DNA of 64,000 bases from positions 1 to 64,000 of the forward strand of contig NZ_JADKYW010000002.1 in assembly GCF_015355785.1 (NCBI RefSeq), read 5' to 3'. Below are positions 29,054-61,510 of the stretch, piece by piece. A model generated the notes under the pieces. That model did no database searches. It was not told the origin of the DNA and was given only the letters and a program-made list of their open reading frames with translations. Both the position numbers and the translations under genes were made by a program. Every line of letters begins with the position of its first letter. The first letter of the stretch is position 1. The DNA is from Arthrobacter gandavensis. GTDB taxonomy: Bacteria; Actinomycetota; Actinomycetes; Actinomycetales; Micrococcaceae.

Positions 29054-29299
29054 CTATTCCGCGTCGGGCCGGCGCAAACCAAGCAGGTTCTTGATCCGCT
29101 CTTCATCTTCGGGGCCCGCAGCAGCAGCGGCTACGTTTGCTTCCTCGACAGCGCGGACAACTTCGTTGCGCTGGATCTTCACGCCGCGGGGGGCATCAAT
29201 GCCAATTCGGACGCCGTCGCCCCGCGAATCGAGCACGGTAATGACAATGTCATCACCTATCAGGATCTGCTCTCCCGATTTCCGCGTTAGCACGAGCAT
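29054..29299 (-). CDS. csrA: Carbon storage regulator CsrA (translational repressor)
   Basis: CsrA is a small dimeric RNA-binding protein that blocks translation by binding ANGGA motifs in hairpin loops and at ribosome sites. The 81-residue product opens MLVLTRKSGEQILIG and contains the VRIGIDAP and RNEV (R/E) elements of the RNA-binding surface. A 20-residue C-terminal extension beyond the E. coli length resembles that of Gram-positive CsrA. It is last in the large flagellar operon, while its antagonist fliW ends the divergent flgN-flgK-flgL operon. Candidate targets are the fliC and flgB leaders in this window. Confidence 0.95.
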   Translation of the reverse strand: MLVLTRKSGEQILIGDDIVITVLDSRGDGVRIGIDAPRGVKIQRNEVVRAVEEANVAAAAAGPEDEERIKNLLGLRRPDAE

Positions 29300-29363: not shown

Positions 29364-30317
29364 TCATAGGACCGCAGAACCGGACGCGGCGCCGTCGAGC
29401 CAGCCAACCGGGAGTCCGAGGGTGTTGACGGTCTGCGGCGTGGCCGTTCCTTCCAGGCCTTCGACAGCCACCGCGTCAACGACTGACGCTGCGCGGATCT
29501 CTCCGACCCAGGCCGCGGTGTCCTCGGCCTTCCGCCCGGCATCAACGGCAACCCACAGCTGGTCCGGGGCGAGGGCAGCAATCAGGGTGGTGTGCCTGCC
29601 GATTTCGCTGACGCCCCGGCCAATCCCGTACGCGAGAAAGATGGGGTGTCCGGCCAGCACCCCGGCTGCCCGTGCGGTCGCGACGGCGCGGCGGTCCCCC
29701 GCGCGCCCCACGCCCGACCCGTCAACCGCTCCGGCTGCGCGCAGGGTCTGGGCACTGAATCCGGCGGCCGCGGCCATTGACTCGCAGACCAGCAGCGGGT
29801 CTTGTCCCAGCCCCACGACAATCACCAGGTCCCCGGCGCCGGCGAGCGGAACCGGGACTTCCTGGCGCGGCGCGGGGAAACCGGCACCGGCCCCGGGTGG
29901 GAGCTGCGGGAAGGACGCCGGAACGGGTGCCGGTGCGCTTGCCGGAGCACGTGCAGGGGCGCCGGTGTTCTGGGACAGATCGGCCATCAGCTCGGCAAAC
30001 GCGTTCGTGCCGGTGGAGACGTCCGGAAGGGCCGGTTCGGCCGGGCGGTACCCGCCCTCGGCTTCCTCCGCCAGGGCCAGCAGTGCACCGATTCCGGCGC
30101 GGCTGGGCAGGTCCGCATCCACCGGAGCTGCCCGGCGTCCGCGCGGCGGGAGCTCCACCGTCACCTCGTAGTGGTGGCGGGCGAGGAACCCGCCGATGCC
30201 GCCTACGGTAACCTTTTCGGCAGCGATGATCCGGGCCCGCGGTCCGTGCTCGGCAAGGACCTGCGCTTTCAGCGCATCAAGGGACGGGCCCTCAAGCTGA
30301 AATCGTCTCGGTTCCAC
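29364..30317 (-). CDS. FlhF-like protein with degenerate GTPase site
   Basis: The 317-residue protein occupies the flhF position after flhA. Its start MEPRRFQLEGPSLDALKAQV...GGFLARHHYEVTVE matches the FlhF N-terminal domain, and its end (DAVAVEGLEGTATPQTVNTLGLPVGWLDG, given here in parts) parallels the FlhF TKLDE to polar-localisation end region. The P-loop is lost: VVGLGQDPLLV replaces GPTGVGKTTT, with no Lys or Ser/Thr for phosphate and Mg binding. A Pro/Ala-rich linker (about 115-160) separates the halves. GTG 30317 lies inside flhA (26-nt overlap). It is probably a structural or regulatory pseudo-GTPase; no flhG is seen. Confidence 0.75.
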   Translation of the reverse strand: MEPRRFQLEGPSLDALKAQVLAEHGPRARIIAAEKVTVGGIGGFLARHHYEVTVELPPRGRRAAPVDADLPSRAGIGALLALAEEAEGGYRPAEPALPDVSTGTNAFAELMADLSQNTGAPARAPASAPAPVPASFPQLPPGAGAGFPAPRQEVPVPLAGAGDLVIVVGLGQDPLLVCESMAAAAGFSAQTLRAAGAVDGSGVGRAGDRRAVATARAAGVLAGHPIFLAYGIGRGVSEIGRHTTLIAALAPDQLWVAVDAGRKAEDTAAWVGEIRAASVVDAVAVEGLEGTATPQTVNTLGLPVGWLDGAASGSAVL

Positions 30318-32343
30318 GGAGCACTCCTACTGTTTCAATGTTCACGTTCGCGGCGGTTGCCTCCTGGTAGGAGAGCACCGGAAGTCCGTTGGCCTGCGCC
30401 GAAACGAGCCGGCGGATGGCCGGCCGCAGGGCTGGCGCGCACACCAGGACCGCGCTGTGGCCGGCGTTTTCCACTGTGGCCACAGTGGACTTAAGTGATC
30501 CTATGATGCTTTCGATTCGTGCGGGGTCCAGGAGGATCTGCGTGCCCTGGTCCGAGGGGCGCAGGCTCTCCAGCATGGCCTGTTCCAGGGACGGGTCGAT
30601 CATGATCACCCTCAGGACACCTGACTCCACGTACTGGGCTGCCAGGGCCGGGCCAAGGGCCTGCCGGGCCGCCTCGATGAGGCCTTCGGGATCCGGAGAC
30701 GTCTTGGCCTTCAGCAGCAGCGATTCATAGATACGCGGCAGGTCATTAATGGGAATCTGCTCCGCGAGCAGGCCCTGCAGCACGCGCTGCACCTCGGCCA
30801 GCGAGAGCACGTTTGGAACCAGTTCATCCACGGCGGAGGGGCTGACCTGCTTGACCCCTTCGGTGAGCACCCGCACGTCTTCACGGGTGAGCAGCCGGGC
30901 GGCATTGGCTGTGATGATCGCGGAGAGGTGGGTGACCAGGACGGATACCCGGTCAATGACGGTGGCACCGGCCATTTCCGCGGCATGGCGCATTTCGGCG
31001 GGAACCCATTTTCCGGAGAGTCCGAACACAGGTTCAACGGTGGCGGTGCCGGGGAGCCCGTCCAGGAAGTCGCCCAGCGCCAGCACCTTGCCCGCCGGCG
31101 CCTCGCCGCGTCCCGCTTCGACGCCGGCAATCCGGATCACGTAGGTGGATGCGGGCAGGTCTACGCTGTCCCGGGTCCGGACCGGCGGAACCACAATGCC
31201 GAGCTCCAGGGCGATTTTGCGGCGCAGGGCCCGGACGCGGGCCAGGAGGTCATCCGAGCCGCCGGTGACGATGTCCACCAGGTCCGGGGAGAGCATCACT
31301 TCGAGGGCGTGGACCCGCATCTGTTCGATCAGGTCCTCGGTGGTGTCCGAGGCCGGTGCCGCGGTCAGCTGCGCCACCGGATCTGCAGCGGCCGCTTCTT
31401 CCGCGGCCTGGCGGGCCTTGACCCGCTGGCTGGCGAAGATCAGCAGTGCGCCAATAACAATGAACGGAATCTTCGGCATGCCCGGAATCAGCGCCATCAC
31501 GATCGCGGCGGCACCTGCGATCATCAGCGCGTTCCGTGACTGGCTGAGCTCGGCAGACGCCGTCGAGGCCATATCCGATTCGGCGTTGGACCGGGTGACG
31601 ATCATGCCGGTGGAAACGGCCATGAGCAGGGCCGGGATCTGGGTGACCAGGCCGTCGCCGATGGTCAGCAGCGTGTAGGTGTCGATGGCTTCACCGGCGG
31701 ACATGCCGCGCTGCAGCATACCGATCGCGATGCCGCCCACAACGTTGATGATGATGATGATCAGGCCGGCGATGGCATCGCCCTTCACGAACTTGGACGC
31801 ACCGTCCATGGCGCCATAGAAGTCGGCCTCCGCGGAGACCTCGGCACGGCGTTCCCGTGCCTGGATGTCCGTGATGAGCCCCGCGTTCAGATCTGCGTCG
31901 ATCGCCATCTGCTTGCCCGGCATGGCATCCAGGGTGAAGCGCGCACCGACTTCGGCCACACGCTCGGCGCCCTTGGTGACCACCACGAACTGGATCACCA
32001 CCAGAATCAGGAAGATCACCGCGCCGATGATCAGGGAGCCGCCCACGGCCACGTGCCCAAACGCCTCGATCACCTGGCCGGCGTAGCCGTCGCCGAGCAC
32101 AAGCCGGGTCGAGGCAACGTTCAGGCCAAGCCGGAACAGGGTGGCGACCAGCAGCATTGAAGGGAACACGGAGAAGTCCAGCGGCTTCTTCACGAACATG
32201 GTGGTCAGCAGGATCACCAGTGCCAGCAGGATGTTGATGATGATCAGGAAGTCCAGCAGCCCGGCGGGCACGGGGACCACCAGCAGCAGGATAATTCCGA
32301 TCACGCCCACGGGGATTGTGAGCTTCAGGAGGTTGCGGTTCAC
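30292..32343 (-). CDS. flhA: Flagellar type III export gate protein FlhA
   Basis: FlhA forms the nonameric ring of the flagellar export gate. The 683-residue protein has about eight N-terminal membrane helices (to about 320), the FHIPEP-family signature region around RLGLNVASTRLVL, the cytoplasmic LDAMPGKQMAIDADLNAG segment, and a four-subdomain cytoplasmic tail that docks chaperone-substrate complexes. It overlaps flhB by ATGA and the FlhF-like gene by 26 nt. Confidence 0.97.
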   Translation of the reverse strand: MNRNLLKLTIPVGVIGIILLLVVPVPAGLLDFLIIINILLALVILLTTMFVKKPLDFSVFPSMLLVATLFRLGLNVASTRLVLGDGYAGQVIEAFGHVAVGGSLIIGAVIFLILVVIQFVVVTKGAERVAEVGARFTLDAMPGKQMAIDADLNAGLITDIQARERRAEVSAEADFYGAMDGASKFVKGDAIAGLIIIIINVVGGIAIGMLQRGMSAGEAIDTYTLLTIGDGLVTQIPALLMAVSTGMIVTRSNAESDMASTASAELSQSRNALMIAGAAAIVMALIPGMPKIPFIVIGALLIFASQRVKARQAAEEAAAADPVAQLTAAPASDTTEDLIEQMRVHALEVMLSPDLVDIVTGGSDDLLARVRALRRKIALELGIVVPPVRTRDSVDLPASTYVIRIAGVEAGRGEAPAGKVLALGDFLDGLPGTATVEPVFGLSGKWVPAEMRHAAEMAGATVIDRVSVLVTHLSAIITANAARLLTREDVRVLTEGVKQVSPSAVDELVPNVLSLAEVQRVLQGLLAEQIPINDLPRIYESLLLKAKTSPDPEGLIEAARQALGPALAAQYVESGVLRVIMIDPSLEQAMLESLRPSDQGTQILLDPARIESIIGSLKSTVATVENAGHSAVLVCAPALRPAIRRLVSAQANGLPVLSYQEATAANVNIETVGVLRGTETISA

Positions 32344-54751: not shown

Positions 54752-55576
54752 TTACTGCAGGAGCTGCATGACGCCGGAGTTCATCTGGTTGGCCTGGGCC
54801 AGCATTGCCGTGGCAGCGCTGGACAGAATCTGGGACTTGGTGAAGTTACCCATTTCCTGTGCCATGTCGGTGTCGCGGATACGGGAGTTGGCAGCTGAGA
54901 GGTTCTCGACCGAGACCGCGATGGAGCGTGCGGTGGACTCAAGGCGGTTCTGCTGTGCACCAAGGGATGCACGCTGATCGGAGATTGCCGCAATCGCAGT
55001 GTCCATAGCCAAAACTGATGTTGCGGCTGCGTCCGAGTCGGCAACGGACGCGCCCGTAACGGCAGTGACCACAGCTGTCATAGCCGTGAAAGCAACTTCC
55101 AGCTGATCTTCCGCTGCAACGCCGCCTGCGCCGATCTGAACGGTGATTGACGTGTCAGCATTGAGCAGTTTGATGCCGTTGAAGTTCGTTGAAGACTGGA
55201 TACGGCCAAGCTCGGCACCCAAGGCGTCGATTTCGTCCTTGATGGCGTCACGGGACTTGGTGTTGTTGGAATCGTTACCACCCTGAACAGCGAGATCGCG
55301 CACTCGGTTCAGGATGTTGTGGACCTCGGTCAGAGCGCCTTCAGCGGTCTGGATGAGGCTGATGCCGTCCTGGGCATTGCGGCCGGCAACCTGCAGACCG
55401 GAGATCTGGTTCTTCAGACCTTCGGAGATAGCCAGGCCGGCGGCGTCGTCAGCTGCGCGGTTGATACGCAGGCCGCTGGAGAGGCGCTCCACCGACTTGG
55501 CCTGGTTGGTCTGGTTCAGGTTGAGGTTGCGCATCGCGTTGAGCGAAGAGACGTTAGTTGCAATTGTGAAACCCAT
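54752..55576 (-). CDS. fliC: Flagellin FliC
   Basis: This is the filament subunit. At 274 residues it is a minimal flagellin: conserved N-terminal D0/D1 (TNVSSLNAMRNLNLNQ, LSSGLRINRAADDAAGLAIS) and C-terminal D1/D0 (SRIRDTDMAQEMGNFTKSQIL, ending VMQLLQ) with only about 60 residues of central variable sequence, rich in Ala/Thr/Val, and no D2/D3 domains. GGAGGA 7 nt before the ATG is a strong ribosome site but is overlapped by a CsrA motif. A sigma-28-type promoter and a CsrA-type hairpin lie upstream. It is the only flagellin in the window. Confidence 0.97.
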   Translation of the reverse strand: MGFTIATNVSSLNAMRNLNLNQTNQAKSVERLSSGLRINRAADDAAGLAISEGLKNQISGLQVAGRNAQDGISLIQTAEGALTEVHNILNRVRDLAVQGGNDSNNTKSRDAIKDEIDALGAELGRIQSSTNFNGIKLLNADTSITVQIGAGGVAAEDQLEVAFTAMTAVVTAVTGASVADSDAAATSVLAMDTAIAAISDQRASLGAQQNRLESTARSIAVSVENLSAANSRIRDTDMAQEMGNFTKSQILSSAATAMLAQANQMNSGVMQLLQ

Positions 55577-55582
55577 GATGAA

Positions 55583-55627
55583 TTCCTCCGTGATTGGGCG
55601 ATTACTACGAGGCCCGTCCGTGGGCCT
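55583..55627 (-). promoter_or_regulatory. Two CsrA-type sites in the fliC leader
   Basis: Site 1 is the hairpin AGGCCC-ACGGAC-GGGCCU (55627 to 55610): a 6-bp stem whose hexaloop presents ACGGA. Site 2 is ACGGAGGAA (55591 to 55583), where ACGGA overlaps the GGAGGA ribosome site. This arrangement, an upstream hairpin plus a site over the Shine-Dalgarno, parallels the B. subtilis hag leader regulated by CsrA and FliW; both proteins are encoded in this window. Confidence 0.75.
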
Positions 55628-55637
55628 GTACCCCTAG

Positions 55638-55664
55638 CTATCGGCCCCAGTCACTGCGGTGTTA
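55638..55664 (-). promoter_or_regulatory. Sigma-28-type promoter for fliC
   Basis: Reads TAAC (55661-55664), N15, GCCGATAG (55638-55645); predicted start near 55631 gives a leader of about 55 nt. Confidence 0.8.
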
Positions 55665-55699: not shown

Positions 55700-56539
55700 C
55701 TAGGACACGGCAGCGTTCAGCCCGTGCCCCTGAACCTGGAAAGTGGGCCCATGGTGCGGATCCAGGCGGGTCAGGCCGCCCGCGGTCCACTCCCCCACCG
55801 AAGTGAGATAGGCGTTGCGGCGGGCCGGCGAAATCCGCGACTCGAGCGGCGCCGGAGTGTCAGTATCCGAGTAGTGGGTTCCCAGGCCGTCACGGAGCAG
55901 GCGGACAGCCTCGGCGCGCTGCTGCGAAATAGCAGAGTGTGTGGCTCCGAGCTCCGCGGCGAGATCCTTGACTGAACGGTCGTGGAAGTAGACCTGCTCC
56001 ACGATGTACCGCATCTTTTCCGGCAGGGCCGCCACGGCGGCACGCAGGTACTGCAGGCGCTCGGTGGAGAGAGCTGAGCCTTCAGGTGACGGCAGGGCAC
56101 TCACCAGCGACTCCGCGGCGGCGTCGTCCAGATGGGAGACGGTGCGCGAGGCGTCGGAAAGCGCGTCCTCCGCCGTCGAGCGGTCAACGCCCATGGCGGA
56201 AGCGATCTCGTCCACCTTCGGGCAGCGGCCCAGCGCAGCAGTCAGTGTTTCCTTGACTGCGAGGGTTTCCTTGATGCGCTTGCGGGCAGTCCTGGTGGCC
56301 CAGTCATTCGAACGCATTTCGTCGGCGAAGGCGCCGACAATCCGCCGTCGGGCGTAGGCACCGAACGGCACCCCCAGCTCCGGATTAAAGGAGTCGGCGG
56401 ACGTAATCAGGGCAATAGCCCCAACCGACGCAAGGTCATCCCTGGACAGATGCGTGGCTTTGGCACACACCTCTGAGACCAGATAACCAACCAAAGGTAA
56501 GTTCTCCACAACCAAAAGGTTGCGTTCATCGCGATTCAA
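55700..56539 (-). CDS. fliA: FliA/WhiG-type RNA polymerase sigma factor (sigma-28 class)
   Basis: The 279-residue sigma-70-family protein has region 2 (VENLPLVGYLVSEV, DLASVGAIALITSADSF, GVPFGAYARRRIVGAFADEMR), region 3 (TRTARKRIKET) and a region 4 helix-turn-helix (SVKDLAAELGATHSAISQQRAEAV). About 60 residues follow region 4, an unusual C-terminal tail. The start is TTG 56539, directly after an in-frame TAG, so no longer form exists; GGGGG 8 nt upstream may serve as ribosome site. GCCGAtAr boxes upstream of five flagellar operons fit this sigma class. No anti-sigma FlgM is recognised nearby. Confidence 0.88.
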   Translation of the reverse strand: MNRDERNLLVVENLPLVGYLVSEVCAKATHLSRDDLASVGAIALITSADSFNPELGVPFGAYARRRIVGAFADEMRSNDWATRTARKRIKETLAVKETLTAALGRCPKVDEIASAMGVDRSTAEDALSDASRTVSHLDDAAAESLVSALPSPEGSALSTERLQYLRAAVAALPEKMRYIVEQVYFHDRSVKDLAAELGATHSAISQQRAEAVRLLRDGLGTHYSDTDTPAPLESRISPARRNAYLTSVGEWTAGGLTRLDPHHGPTFQVQGHGLNAAVS

Positions 56540-57315: not shown

Positions 57316-58716
57316 ATGAGCACCTTCAGCGGCCTGAACACCGCCTATACCGGTCTGAGCGCAGCCCGCAAGGGACTCGACGTCGTCGGGCAGAACATCG
57401 CCAACGTCAACACCCCCGGCTACACCCGCCAGCGAGTTACCACCTCCGCCATGGGCGGGGCGGCGGTCACTGGCAAGTTCGCCACCGGTGCCCGCGTGGG
57501 CCAGGGCGTCTCCGTTGACGGCATCGCCCGCTTGGGCAGCATGCAGCTGGACACCCGGGTACGGGCCACGGCAGCGGCGTCGGGCTTCTCTGCCGTACGC
57601 GCCAACGCCCTCGCCGGACTTGAGACCAGCCTCAACGAACCCGGCAAGAACGGTATTTCAGCCTCCCTCACAGAGTTTTGGGCAGCCTGGCAGGGTGTTG
57701 CCAACAAGCCCGGGAATGAGGCGGCTGCCACTGCGCTGATCGGGCAGGCCAACATCATCGCCACCCAGCTGGCCACGGGGTATAACTCCGTGAAGGAACA
57801 GTGGGCCGGTGCGCACAACCAGCTGACGGATATGGAAGCTGAGCTGAACGGCGCCGCCTCCCAAATCGCTTCGCTAAACGCTCAGATCCGCACCACCCTG
57901 GCCTCGGGCGGCACGGCCAACGAACTCATCGACCAGCGCAACGCCCTCACCACCACCATCGCCGCCCTCGCCGGCGGTACCGTCCGTGAATCGGACAACG
58001 GCATGGTGGACGTGCTGATCGACGGCAACGCCATCGTTTCGGGGGACCTTGTCCGCCCGGTAAAGGTTGCCGGCGGCAGCGAGATGGGTGGAGACGCGCC
58101 CCGGCTTGAGTGGGCGCACCGGCCCGGCAGCAACATGGCCGCCAGCGGCGAAATCGCCGGTGTGCTGAGCATCCTGGCCCCGGCCGCCGACGGCGGAATC
58201 CTCGCCTCCGCTGCAGAGGGCTACAACAAGTTCGCCAACGAGCTGGCCAGTGCGGTGAACGACGAGCATAACGGCGGCATCAACACGGCCGGGATTGCGG
58301 TAGGCAACTTCTTCAGCCACGACACCGATCCTGCGGCGCTGTCGCTCAAGGTCATACCGACCGATGCTTCAGGCATCGCCACCGGCGCGGCGAACCTGGG
58401 CAACCTGGACAGCTCCATCGCGGACAGAATCGCCCAGCTGGGAACCGGCCCGAAGTCCCCCGACTCCGCCTGGGCCAACTTCGTCAGCGGCATCGGCGCG
58501 AGCAGCCGCGTGGAGATGCAGCAGGCGGAGCTCGCCGGCGTCGCAGCCTCTGCCGCCGTCGACATGCAGCTCTCCAACTCCTCCGTGGACCTGGACGAGG
58601 AGAACCTGAACCTCCTGGCCTACCAGCACGCCTACCAGGGTGCGGCGCGGGTCATGACCGCCATCGACGAAATGCTCGACACCCTCATCAACCGCACCGG
58701 CATTGTGGGAAGGTAA
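57316..58716 (+). CDS. flgK: Flagellar hook-filament junction protein FlgK
   Basis: FlgK (HAP1) joins hook to filament. The 466-residue protein opens with the rod/hook-type N-terminus (AYTGLSAARKGLDVVGQNIANV, NTPGYTRQRV) and closes with the C-terminal SNSSVDLDEENLNLLAYQHAYQ region typical of FlgK. AAAGGA is about 12 nt before the ATG. Second gene in the flgN-flgK-flgL-fliW operon. Confidence 0.96.
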   Translation: MSTFSGLNTAYTGLSAARKGLDVVGQNIANVNTPGYTRQRVTTSAMGGAAVTGKFATGARVGQGVSVDGIARLGSMQLDTRVRATAAASGFSAVRANALAGLETSLNEPGKNGISASLTEFWAAWQGVANKPGNEAAATALIGQANIIATQLATGYNSVKEQWAGAHNQLTDMEAELNGAASQIASLNAQIRTTLASGGTANELIDQRNALTTTIAALAGGTVRESDNGMVDVLIDGNAIVSGDLVRPVKVAGGSEMGGDAPRLEWAHRPGSNMAASGEIAGVLSILAPAADGGILASAAEGYNKFANELASAVNDEHNGGINTAGIAVGNFFSHDTDPAALSLKVIPTDASGIATGAANLGNLDSSIADRIAQLGTGPKSPDSAWANFVSGIGASSRVEMQQAELAGVAASAAVDMQLSNSSVDLDEENLNLLAYQHAYQGAARVMTAIDEMLDTLINRTGIVGR

Positions 58717-58720
58717 CCCC

Positions 58721-59620
58721 GTGATCACCCGCACCTCCAACCTGATGCTGACGCGCAACGCGCAGCAGAACCTCCAGGCCAACATGTCCCGGCTGGCCAA
58801 GCTGCAGGAGCAGGCCCAGACCTCCGCAGCCATCACCCGCCCGTCGGACAACCCCACGGGAACCGCAGACGCCCTGAAGGTGCGCGCAGAAATGCGTGCC
58901 AACACCGCCCACAAGGGCAACATCTCGGATGCGAACGGCTGGCTGGCCACCCTGGACAATGCGCTGACCAGCACCAGCGACATCCTCACCCGGATCAAGG
59001 ACCTGTCCATCACGGCATCGACGGCAACAACGACGCCGGCCAGCAAGGCTGCGATCGCCACTGAGATCGAGGGCCTGAAGAAGGACCTGCTGGGCCAGGC
59101 CAACACCAGCTATCTGGGCCGGAACATTTTCGCCGGCAATTCCGACGCCGGTGCCGCCGTCGTCGAAAATCCGCCGGCCCCGCCGGCAACGGCACCGACC
59201 TACACCTTCGCCGGTGACGGTCACGGCCCGGTGAACCGCCGGATTGATGCCAACACCCTGGTCCGCGTCGACGCGAGTGCCAAGGAGGTCTTCGGAGACA
59301 TGCTCACCAGGATCGATTCCCTGGTCGCCGATCTGCGGGGCAACGGCAACATCAGTACCCACCTGGCCGGCATCGATGAGAGCATCAACACCGTGCTGAC
59401 TTCGCAGACCGACGTCGGTATCCGCCACGCCCGTGTCCTGAAAGCAGAGGAAGCCAACTTGGAGCAGTCCGTCAGCCTGGAGACCCGGCGCTCCGGCATC
59501 GAGGACCTGGACACGGCCCAGGTCATCCTGGACCTGAAGCTCCAGGAGCTCGCCTACCAGTCCTCCCTGGCTGTCACCGCGAAGGTACTCCAGCCCACCC
59601 TGATGGACTTCCTGCGATGA
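58721..59620 (+). CDS. flgL: Flagellar hook-filament junction protein FlgL
   Basis: FlgL (HAP3) is the second junction protein, related to flagellin. From GTG 58721 it is 299 residues, opening VITRTSNLMLTRNAQQNLQ and containing ITRPSDNPTGTADALKVR; the C-terminus (DLKLQELAYQSSLAVTAKVLQ) forms the D0-type helix. AAGG lies 8 nt upstream within the flgK end, 4 nt after its stop. It overlaps fliW by ATGA. Confidence 0.95.
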   Translation: MITRTSNLMLTRNAQQNLQANMSRLAKLQEQAQTSAAITRPSDNPTGTADALKVRAEMRANTAHKGNISDANGWLATLDNALTSTSDILTRIKDLSITASTATTTPASKAAIATEIEGLKKDLLGQANTSYLGRNIFAGNSDAGAAVVENPPAPPATAPTYTFAGDGHGPVNRRIDANTLVRVDASAKEVFGDMLTRIDSLVADLRGNGNISTHLAGIDESINTVLTSQTDVGIRHARVLKAEEANLEQSVSLETRRSGIEDLDTAQVILDLKLQELAYQSSLAVTAKVLQPTLMDFLR

Positions 59621-60015
59621 GCACCGTGACTCCCGTTTCCTTCCTTGCGCCGCCTCCGGGCCTGGAGCCGCTGACCGAATTCGCGCTGGAAGACGTCGAC
59701 GGCGCCACGGGACTCTACTCCCTCACCGGGACGGACGTCTCCGCTGGCGTGCGGCGCTTCTACGCCATCGACGCCGCGGTCTACCTGCCGGAGTACAACC
59801 CGGAGATCTCCGATGAGCAGGCCCGCCAGCTCCAGCTGGAGGATCCGGCCGAAGCGCGCGTCCTGGTGGTCGCGAATCCGTCCGACGCCGGCACCACCGT
59901 CAACCTGCTGGCCCCGGTGATCATCAACACCCGGACCTGGCAGTGCGCCCAGGTGATCCTCGAGGGCCGGGACCTTCCGCTGCGGGCACCGCTGGAAGCC
60001 GTCGCCGCTGCCTAG
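59617..60015 (+). CDS. fliW: FliW, flagellar assembly factor and CsrA antagonist
   Basis: FliW binds either flagellin or CsrA; when flagellin is exported, free FliW removes CsrA from the flagellin mRNA. The 132-residue protein matches the family over FLAPPPGLEPLTEFAL, GLYSLTG, VLVVANPSDAGTTVNLLAPVIINTRTWQCAQVIL (in parts). Its ATGA overlap with flgL places it in the late flagellar operon. csrA and fliC are both in the window, so the full three-part homeostatic loop is encoded. Confidence 0.95.
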   Translation: MSTVTPVSFLAPPPGLEPLTEFALEDVDGATGLYSLTGTDVSAGVRRFYAIDAAVYLPEYNPEISDEQARQLQLEDPAEARVLVVANPSDAGTTVNLLAPVIINTRTWQCAQVILEGRDLPLRAPLEAVAAA

Positions 60016-60045: not shown

Positions 60046-60101
60046 CGAGATAGCAGAAAGTGCACGTCCCAGAGCTGGGACGTGCACTTTCTGCTATCTC
60101 G
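60046..60101. repeat. Palindromic repeat copy B (27-bp perfect stem), probable bidirectional terminator
   Basis: Arms 60046-60072 and 60075-60101 are perfect reverse complements; the outer part CGAGATAGCAGAAAGTGC matches copies A and C with two to three changes. A TTTTTGGGG run follows on the plus strand. It lies between convergent fliW and the aldo/keto reductase gene. Confidence 0.9.
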
Positions 60102-60116
60102 TTTTTGGGGTGGGAG

Positions 60117-60953
60117 TTAGGCGAAGTCGGACGTCGCCGGATCCGCGCCGAAGCGGGTGCCGTTGTCCAGGGCGTTGATTGCCTGGATGTCCTCATCGGA
60201 GAGCTTGAGGTCCAATGCTGCCCAGTTCTCACGGATGCGGGACTCAGTGACGGACTTCGGGATCACGATGTTGCCCAGTGCCAGGTGCCAGGCGATGACC
60301 ACCTGGGCGGGCGTGGCGCCGTCGTACTTTGCTGCGATGTCCTTGAGCACTGCATCATCCAGCAGGCCCTGGCCGGAGCCCAGCGGAGAGTAAGACTCGT
60401 GCTTGATGTTGTGCTTGGCCTCGAACTCACGCAGTTCCGTCTGGGCCAGGTACGGGTGGGTCTCCACCTGGTTCAGGACGGGGACCACGCCGGTGGCGTC
60501 GATGATCTCCTGCAGGGCCTCGACGGTGAAGTTGCAGACGCCGATGGACTTGACCCGGCCGGACTTCTGCAGCTCAACCAGTGCCTTCCAGGTGTCCACG
60601 TACTTGCCCTGCTTCGGCTGCAGCCAGTGGATCAGGTACAGGTCCAGGTATTCCAGCCCGAGGCGCTCCATGGAGGCGTCGAAGGCTGCCAGGGTCTCTT
60701 CGTAGCCCTGGTCTGCGTTCCAGACCTTGGTGGTGATGAACATGTCTTCACGCGGCAGGCTGGAGGCGGCGATGGCGCGGCCTACGCCTGCTTCGTTGTC
60801 GTAGATCTTGGCGGTGTCGATGTGGCGGTAACCGGCTTCGAAGGCCATACCAACGGTCTTTTCCGCGAGTTCGTCCTCAACCCGCCAGACGCCGTAGCCG
60901 AGCTGGGGGATGGTGTTGCCGTCGTTGAAGGTGACGAGAGGAGATGTAGTCAT
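60117..60953 (-). CDS. Aldo/keto reductase
   Basis: This 278-residue NADPH-dependent oxidoreductase of the AKR superfamily reduces carbonyls. The catalytic tetrad is D46, Y51, K76 and H109 (HIDTAKIYDNE, TTKVWN, YLIHW), and the NADPH-binding IPKSVTESRIREN is near the C-terminus. It is closest in pattern to 2,5-diketo-gluconate reductase-type AKRs; the substrate is unknown. ATG 60953 has GGAGG 9 nt upstream. It converges on fliW across repeat copy B. Confidence 0.94.
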   Translation of the reverse strand: MTTSPLVTFNDGNTIPQLGYGVWRVEDELAEKTVGMAFEAGYRHIDTAKIYDNEAGVGRAIAASSLPREDMFITTKVWNADQGYEETLAAFDASMERLGLEYLDLYLIHWLQPKQGKYVDTWKALVELQKSGRVKSIGVCNFTVEALQEIIDATGVVPVLNQVETHPYLAQTELREFEAKHNIKHESYSPLGSGQGLLDDAVLKDIAAKYDGATPAQVVIAWHLALGNIVIPKSVTESRIRENWAALDLKLSDEDIQAINALDNGTRFGADPATSDFA

Positions 60954-61051
60954 GGTCCCCATCCTCCACCCGGCATGCGCGTCCCGCAGACCAAAAGCGC
61001 CGGTGTTTGCTGGACGCGAAATCGCGGCCGCTGCTCTTGCGGCGTGCCGGC

Positions 61052-61510
61052 CTAGGTGCGGGAGGCCGCCAGGACGCGCTCTGCCTCTGCGACGTCGTCC
61101 TGGACCAGGGCCGCCCGGCGCCGGACATTCTCCACTCCTGCGGAGGCAATGCCCCAGCGCTCGCCTTCCAGCCGGGACATGGCGGCGGCCTCCGCGGCGG
61201 CTGCCAGCGAATTGCCGGAGCGGGAGAGCGCCCGGTGCACGGCGATCAATCCGCCGGGAATGTCCTGGCCGGAGCTGGGCAGCTGTTTCTGGGCTCCGGC
61301 ACAGACGGCCCGGACGCGCGGGAGCAGTGCGGCCAGGTCGTTGGCGACCAGCGCCAGGTCGTTGTACAGGGCGTCGTCTTCCACCCCTTCGAGCATCTGG
61401 TGGTAGCGGTCCAGCCCGCGGGTGAACCGGTCGTGGGCACGCCGCCACACACCCTTGCCGAGTTCGGTGTCGTCCTTGCGCCCCTGCCGGGCTGCTGCGA
61501 AAAGTGCCAT
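61052..61510 (-). CDS. Conserved hypothetical helical protein next to bpa
   Basis: I do not recognise a family. The 152-residue product is mostly helical and Ala/Arg/Leu-rich (RAHDRFTRGLDRYHQMLEGVED; DLAALLPRVRAVCAGAQ), with no signal peptide or membrane helix. It lies 26 nt after the proteasome activator gene on the same strand, so the two are probably co-transcribed. No function is proposed. Confidence 0.8.
   Translation of the reverse strand: MALFAAARQGRKDDTELGKGVWRRAHDRFTRGLDRYHQMLEGVEDDALYNDLALVANDLAALLPRVRAVCAGAQKQLPSSGQDIPGGLIAVHRALSRSGNSLAAAAEAAAMSRLEGERWGIASAGVENVRRRAALVQDDVAEAERVLAASRT

Follow-up and report, generated by a model that had tools for sequence, protein, structure and literature searches.

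A covarying hairpin and a ribosome-site motif form a candidate pair of CsrA sites in the flagellin leader of Arthrobacter gandavensis and related actinobacteria

The flagellin locus of Arthrobacter gandavensis raises the question of whether an actinobacterium controls flagellin synthesis by the CsrA-FliW translational switch that has been demonstrated in Bacillus subtilis and Campylobacter jejuni (PMC7652899, PMC6529632, PMC4894983). The initial annotation of the stretch analysed here (the window, 64,000 nucleotides in full, from a genome of 3.37 Mb) had proposed a pair of CsrA sites in the fliC leader resembling those of B. subtilis hag, with csrA and fliW both encoded nearby. The genes concerned are the following.

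29054..29299, minus strand: csrA, 81 aa, downstream of flhA (30292-32343) and of a 317-aa ORF (PF02599 6.6e-24)
54752..55576, minus strand: fliC, flagellin (PF00669 1.8e-42, PF00700 1.2e-23)
55700..56539, minus strand: FliA/WhiG-type sigma factor, directly upstream of fliC (TIGR02479 1.7e-34, below the curated cut-off; Sigma70_r2/r4)
58703..59620, plus strand: flgL-type gene with flagellin domains, upstream of fliW and after flgK 57316-58716 (PF00669 2.7e-17, PF00700 2.3e-7)
59617..60015, plus strand: fliW, 132 aa, overlapping the end of flgL (PF02623 1.3e-20, above the cut-off; PDB 5dmb chain A 7.8e-6)

These domain matches confirmed that csrA and fliW are genuine, as annotated. csrA also matched one NCBIfam CsrA equivalog above its cut-off and TIGR00202 just below, while eight NCBIfam FliW models matched fliW, all below their cut-offs. 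The best PDB match of CsrA is a CsrA chain (5dmb chain D) from an entry that also contains FliW, and the FliW chain (A) of the same entry is the best match of FliW. The alignment with chain D extends to residue 71 of CsrA, apparently into the C-terminal extension, and alignment with solved CsrA/RsmE chains indicated that CsrA retains L4 and R44, which we take to be its RNA-contact residues. Among named fliC genes the closest, at 93% identity, is from Arthrobacter luteolus. fliC is the sole filament-type flagellin gene found in the genome, the one other match (2.2e-8) being weak and located at the flgL place; we read the ORF at 58703..59620 as flgL because of its domain matches and its place after flgK. 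For the ORFs beside csrA (29364-30317, minus strand, 317 aa) and fliW (60060-61055, plus strand, 331 aa), neither Pfam nor NCBIfam returned a match. About 30 kb separate csrA from fliW in the window, whereas in several other lineages of the phylum (e.g. genomes G331, G215 and G204) the two genes are neighbours; csrA seems to have moved.

Reading of the fliC leader (55645-55574, minus strand) revealed a sigma-28-like -10 element, a 6-bp hairpin with the loop ACGGAC and the ribosome site CACGGAGGA. The hairpin and the ribosome-site motif are both there on the minus strand as the initial annotation had described them.

55638..55664, minus strand: putative sigma-28-like promoter, TAAC 55664-55661, 15-nt spacer, GCCGATAG 55645-55638 (sequence read)
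55610..55627, minus strand: upstream CsrA-type site (candidate), hairpin AGGCCC-ACGGAC-GGGCCU (conserved loop, covarying stem)
55627-55622, 55621-55616 and 55615-55610, minus strand: parts of the hairpin, AGGCCC, loop ACGGAC and GGGCCT (sequence read)
55619-55617, minus strand: GGA in the hexaloop of the hairpin
55584..55592, minus strand: downstream CsrA-type site (candidate) CACGGAGGA, overlapping the ribosome-binding site (sequence read and CANGGA enrichment)
55576-55574, minus strand: fliC start codon ATG

Sigma-28 (FliA/SigD) promoters have TAAA-N14-16-GCCGATAA-type elements, and judged by this general-knowledge consensus TAAC-N15-GCCGATAG fits the type and is a putative promoter. The GGA of the hairpin loop and the GGA of the ribosome site are 30 nt apart. 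Folding predicted the inner pairs of the hairpin with probability 0.999 in the leader context, while the fold of the single leader was not exceptional among shuffles (z -0.81). A cmscan of the window against Rfam at gathering scores returned one tRNA only, the leader being without match.

Relatives of FliC were fetched by protein only and not by leader, from the genomes of the genus and from 80 loci with record titles in a collection scan, and this gave 105 leaders, duplicates between the two sets included. One flgL-type entry without fliC (L002) was dropped, and for five leaders (L053, L056, L102, L105 and L106) another flagellin copy of the locus was used. A GGA-hexaloop hairpin (score of 12 or more) was found in 104 of the 105 actinobacterial leaders, with the GGA 33-68 nt before the start, under a finder that demands GGA and takes the best-scoring stem, so that GGA is fixed by rule in the resulting alignment and pairing is somewhat favoured. 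Under the same rule the median score was 19 in the leaders against a mean of 2.9 in shuffled leaders. Of the 105 leaders, 97 scored 15 or more, 15 being the 99th percentile of shuffled leaders. Random windows drawn from these loci did so in 407 cases out of 21,000, and among 1,611 further ORFs of at least 80 codons (an uncurated set with a ribosome-site word) 71 had such a score upstream. Since the single-leader fold is unremarkable, it is this comparative sequence evidence by which we judge that the hairpin is not a chance product.

Stems are GC-rich, 6 bp in the window and mostly 5-9 bp in the relatives. The inner pairs were predicted in context at less than 0.5 in 16 of 104 leaders, two of them near zero. 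The leader without hairpin, L078, belongs to one of two flagellin copies of Dactylosporangium vinaceum, the other of which (L100) has it; L078 is possibly a natural escape from control. Within the genus, all 24 other leaders (L003-L026, from 23 genomes) retain the A(C/U)GGA hairpin loop and CACGGAGGA, and the conservation of ACGGA motifs and stem among close relatives, on which the initial annotation had staked its proposal, thus held throughout.

Alignment of the 81 distinct sequences among the 104 leaders (A1; L078 left out for want of a hairpin) allowed the stem to be examined pair by pair. All seven tested pairs showed two-sided changes, in 119 of 476 cells from 68 distinct hairpins. The covariation score was 0.636 against 0.144 in shuffles, none of 500 shuffles being as high, and six slid-structure controls gave 0.05-0.16, all below the observed value; the covariation that the initial annotation had asked for among relatives is present. 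In the same hairpins 88.7% of the cells were paired against 58.2% in shuffles, a share that the stem preference of the finder raises somewhat and that is lowered by mismatches at pair 3 or pairs 3-4 in Geodermatophilus and kin. In Geodermatophilus, Blastococcus and kin (L047, L054, L063, L065 and similar) the arms read GCAGC/GCAGC or GCCAGC/GCCAGC, and the mismatch at these positions is symmetric and recurs throughout the group.

On a quick FliC tree (92 rows after removal of duplicates, without L078 and without L049, whose start codon was not found) the pair type changed 9, 15, 7, 16, 16 and 17 times for pairs 2 to 7, one-sided changes included, while the closing C-G pair did not change at all among the 92 rows; L049, outside the tree, has A-U. 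The A that opens the loop before GGA is present in 81 of 81 aligned rows, at a position outside the finder rule, and GGA is likewise invariant there but is demanded by the finder. As far as sequence comparison goes, drifting arms around a constant C-ANGGAN-G core are what is expected of a CsrA-type RNA site and not of a DNA operator. If the repeat were an operator, bound by a transcription factor from the flagellar cluster, its place just downstream of the promoter and its perfect symmetry in many species would fit; yet its arms, which an operator should conserve, vary through compensatory substitution, and the non-symmetric GGA at the centre is kept. We reject this explanation as having hardly any probability left.

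We asked whether the proteins of the switch accompany flagellin. In a draw of 396 genomes from the phylum, 59 had a flagellin-domain match (FlgL counted too); of these, 58 had csrA and 57 had fliW, while of the 337 others 15 had csrA and 1 had fliW. Fisher values take no account of relatedness, and the genes often lie side by side, so these figures describe an association rather than a mechanism. The 15 genomes with a csrA match and no flagellin-domain match (G042, G044, G070, G083, G128 and ten others) may include some incomplete assemblies. In the genus, 24 of 29 genomes, that of the window counted, hold fliC, and the same 24 hold csrA, fliW and a strong element, while the remaining five lack all three genes; since csrA and fliW both lie within the flagellar cluster, their joint loss is not independent evidence.

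Analysis of the ribosome site pointed to a second position under constraint. Of 62 distinct ribosome sites of fliC, 54 contain CANGGA; among the 1,077 other starts with a GGAR word in the same loci, 226 of them lacking a readable flank, the number is 72. Because the fliC sites are mutually related, these counts are not a probability. The same word CANGGA stands in the hairpin loop and at the ribosome site, and at the latter its conservation, judged by these sequence counts, exceeds the needs of translation. The distance from the loop GGA to the first ribosome-site GGA is 22-39 nt in 103 of 105 leaders, L049 and L078 deviating. The hag-like two-site arrangement is in this way supported by the sequences, one CANGGA lying in the loop of a covarying hairpin and the other over the ribosome site.

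In fold predictions for 78 leaders the SD was enclosed by 6.6 expected pairs against 4.8 in shuffles, a modest excess, and was itself predicted to be less paired than in shuffles (0.46 against 0.59). A second helix, in which a CCC of the linker would pair with AUGGGU and put the ribosome site in a loop, is weakly suggested by the modelling; the linker CCC is found whether or not GGG follows the start, and it shows no clear link with the GGG of ATGGGT.

The repetition of CANGGA bears on the idea that CsrA plays no part and that the hairpin stabilises or insulates the 5' end in a general way, the GGA of its loop being incidental. The position at the 5' end and the GC-rich stems would fit. On the other hand, the stem drifts by compensation while A-N-GGA and the closing C-G are fixed, the opposite of what a mere stem needs; moreover the word recurs at the ribosome site, and csrA accompanies flagellin domains in all but one of the 59 genomes. 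This idea we also reject as very improbable.

The main rival keeps CsrA and reverses its effect: bound to the 5'-proximal hairpin, CsrA would mainly protect and stabilise the mRNA and so activate flagellin, as in the precedent described for E. coli flhDC (PMC2587704). A CCGAT-like -10 word precedes the hairpin in 97 of the 105 leaders and lies 24 or 25 nt from the loop GGA in 64 of those 97; from this nearly constant distance the hairpin is predicted to be placed near the 5' end of the fliC RNA. Protection would account for a spacing so much steadier than the 22-39 nt to the ribosome-site GGA. It would not account for a CANGGA kept over the ribosome site beyond what translation needs, nor for FliW, an antagonist of repression in B. 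subtilis, in 57 of the 59 flagellin-domain genomes, and we consider it improbable, if less so than the two explanations above.

The explanation that we prefer with considerable confidence is that the fliC leader is a two-site CsrA target under control of the hag/flaA type, in which CsrA would block translation until FliW removes it. One face of the CsrA dimer would bind the loop of the 5'-proximal hairpin (CANGGANG, the strong site) and the other the CANGGA over the ribosome site; the bridged dimer would block access of the ribosome. FliW, when free of cytoplasmic flagellin, would remove CsrA, and flagellin would be produced only during its export. The sites, their structure and covariation, the genes and their co-occurrence are seen in the DNA itself. 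Binding by CsrA, its repressive direction and the FliW switch are carried over by analogy from B. subtilis and C. jejuni.

In order to follow the element beyond the collected leaders, a covariance model of hairpin and ribosome site (R1) was built from 77 aligned fliC leaders (A2, from which L049, L052, L089 and L105 had additionally been removed). Fifteen of its rows come from the genus set and genomes that donated rows match by construction; the E-value calibration was short, and matches at E 0.0001 to 0.01 were treated as noise. In the genome of the window the model found fliC at 2.5e-14, the next match being at 0.14. In the genus it found the same 24 of 29 genomes, at fliC and at 1.2e-12 or better, while the best match in the five genomes lacking the genes was 0.002.

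In an even draw of 144 genomes from the order, we kept flagellin-domain rows at E 1.4e-38 or better; the rest, at 5e-24 or weaker, were assigned to FlgL and set aside, which drops a 51st genome (G479). A model match lies directly upstream of at least 66 of 69 filament-type flagellin genes, and in the other three (in G549, in G453 and one of six copies in G541) the hairpin is present on reading. Where flagellins stand in tandem, each carries its own element: the model finds all four in three genomes, all three in one and both in three, and in G541 it finds five of six, the sixth being seen by eye. At E 1e-6 or better 57 matches were listed; 56 lie at flagellins, and the other precedes an ORF of 113 aa, a flagellin remnant or reduced paralogue. 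This ORF (L176:643-984, minus strand, in G537) has a flagellin C-terminal match, lies between a sigma-factor-like ORF and fliC, and has its own leader with a GGA hairpin; from its sequence it is probably a reduced or decaying flagellin paralogue. Among the matches listed, none at 1e-6 fell in the 93 genomes without flagellin-domain match, where the best was 3.7e-6, an off-flagellin match in G515 that was not retained. At E 0.01 at least 90 of the 144 genomes had some match, such weak matches meaning little.

Across the 396 genomes of the phylum draw, 80 had some match at E 0.01 or better, most of them off flagellin, while the four best lay at flagellins from the order. Next in rank, a match at 4.7e-7 (L141 in G299) was taken as chance; this genome has no csrA, flagellin or fliW match, and we read the ORFs around the match as acyl-CoA dehydrogenase-like and CoA-transferase-like. 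A hand comparison placed a match directly upstream in 11 of the 59 flagellin-domain genomes, with stricter search filters and with leaders outside the order more divergent. The initial annotation had set the arrangement in an actinobacterium; it is present there, and the element extends far more widely than that single organism.

Outside the order, 19 of 27 leaders have a short hairpin with a GGA penta- or hexaloop, compared with 6.7% of random windows; L133, whose leader was truncated in this count, scores 0 there, while a hairpin is visible in its fuller form. These hairpins are often GGC-ANGGAN-GCC and mostly 3-5 bp, some of the 19 having other loops (L112, L114, L117, L128). In L112, L114, L115 and L125, from two other families, GGC-AUGAG-GCC or GGC-AUGAA-GCC hairpins carry UGA in place of the loop GGA. 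L127 and L135, leaders of flagellins directly after csrA, showed no hairpin of note. That the short hairpins belong with the element is suggestive, not established, on their sequences. The leader may represent an ancient and as yet unregistered RNA family that spans the whole phylum and consists of a GGA hairpin and a ribosome site placed once before each flagellin gene, tandem copies and the reduced flagellin included. CsrA would then be in effect a flagellin regulator with a single client, and the short GGC-ANGGAN-GCC hairpins would be the ancestral form, lengthened to hexaloop stems around Arthrobacter, Nocardioides, Geodermatophilus and Dactylosporangium. We offer this joint reading tentatively, at a little short of even confidence.

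Searches of the open literature, with subscription journals mostly outside their coverage, found no paper on the fliC-leader hairpin and no demonstrated CsrA target in Actinobacteria, nor any binding or expression results from an actinobacterium. A survey of FliW lists Actinobacteria among the phyla possibly using FliW on CsrA (PMC4682653), and in the accessible text of a 2023 survey of actinobacterial flagella CsrA and FliW are each named once, in the methods (PMC10746217). The conserved hairpin, without Rfam match at gathering scores, therefore appears to be new, while the CsrA-FliW pathway itself had already been suggested for actinobacteria. As far as the open literature shows, this is the first strong comparative evidence for a working CsrA-FliW-flagellin switch in actinobacteria. 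The covarying element could be developed into an RNA family and serve as a marker of flagellin genes, and the question of CsrA as a one-target flagellin regulator is made testable.

Among actinobacteria the nearest account is that of Kineococcus radiotolerans, where csrA lies a few genes after flhA and CsrA control of flagellin was suggested because 9 of 12 bases at the fliC ribosome site agree with hag BS2 (PMC2587704). Arthrobacter is alike in having csrA shortly after flhA; the cited portion of that account deals with the ribosome site alone, with no hairpin or relatives compared and FliW unnamed (PMC2587704). In the leader of Clostridioides difficile fliC two sites were predicted, TGACAAGGATGT and the ribosome site CTAAGGAGGG (PMC8523840). 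Arthrobacter shares the two predicted sites with that organism of another phylum, for which covariation is not mentioned in the text cited.

In B. subtilis fliW follows flgL, and the Arthrobacter locus resembles it in this order, in two leader sites of which one is over the ribosome site, and in a CsrA with a C-terminal extension. Unlike in B. subtilis, csrA is some 30 kb from fliW. The two CsrA sites of hag are BS1 at A51-A55 and BS2 at C75-G82 (PMC8523840), and FliW binds the extended C-terminus of CsrA (PMC7652899). The upstream site of Arthrobacter is the loop of a GC-rich hairpin, whereas the cited hag passages are silent on a hairpin at BS1. A parallel in form is C. jejuni flaA. Its leader of 45 nt has one ANGGA in a stem-loop and another at the ribosome site, an arrangement shown experimentally, and the gene has a sigma-28 promoter; the flaA leaders of Campylobacter species show compensatory changes (PMC4894983). 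The second flaA site lies in a probed stem-loop, whereas the second helix is only weakly suggested by prediction in Arthrobacter, and the phyla are different; both leaders have an ANGGA stem-loop, an ANGGA at the ribosome site, compensatory changes and a sigma-28-type promoter, the last being putative in Arthrobacter.
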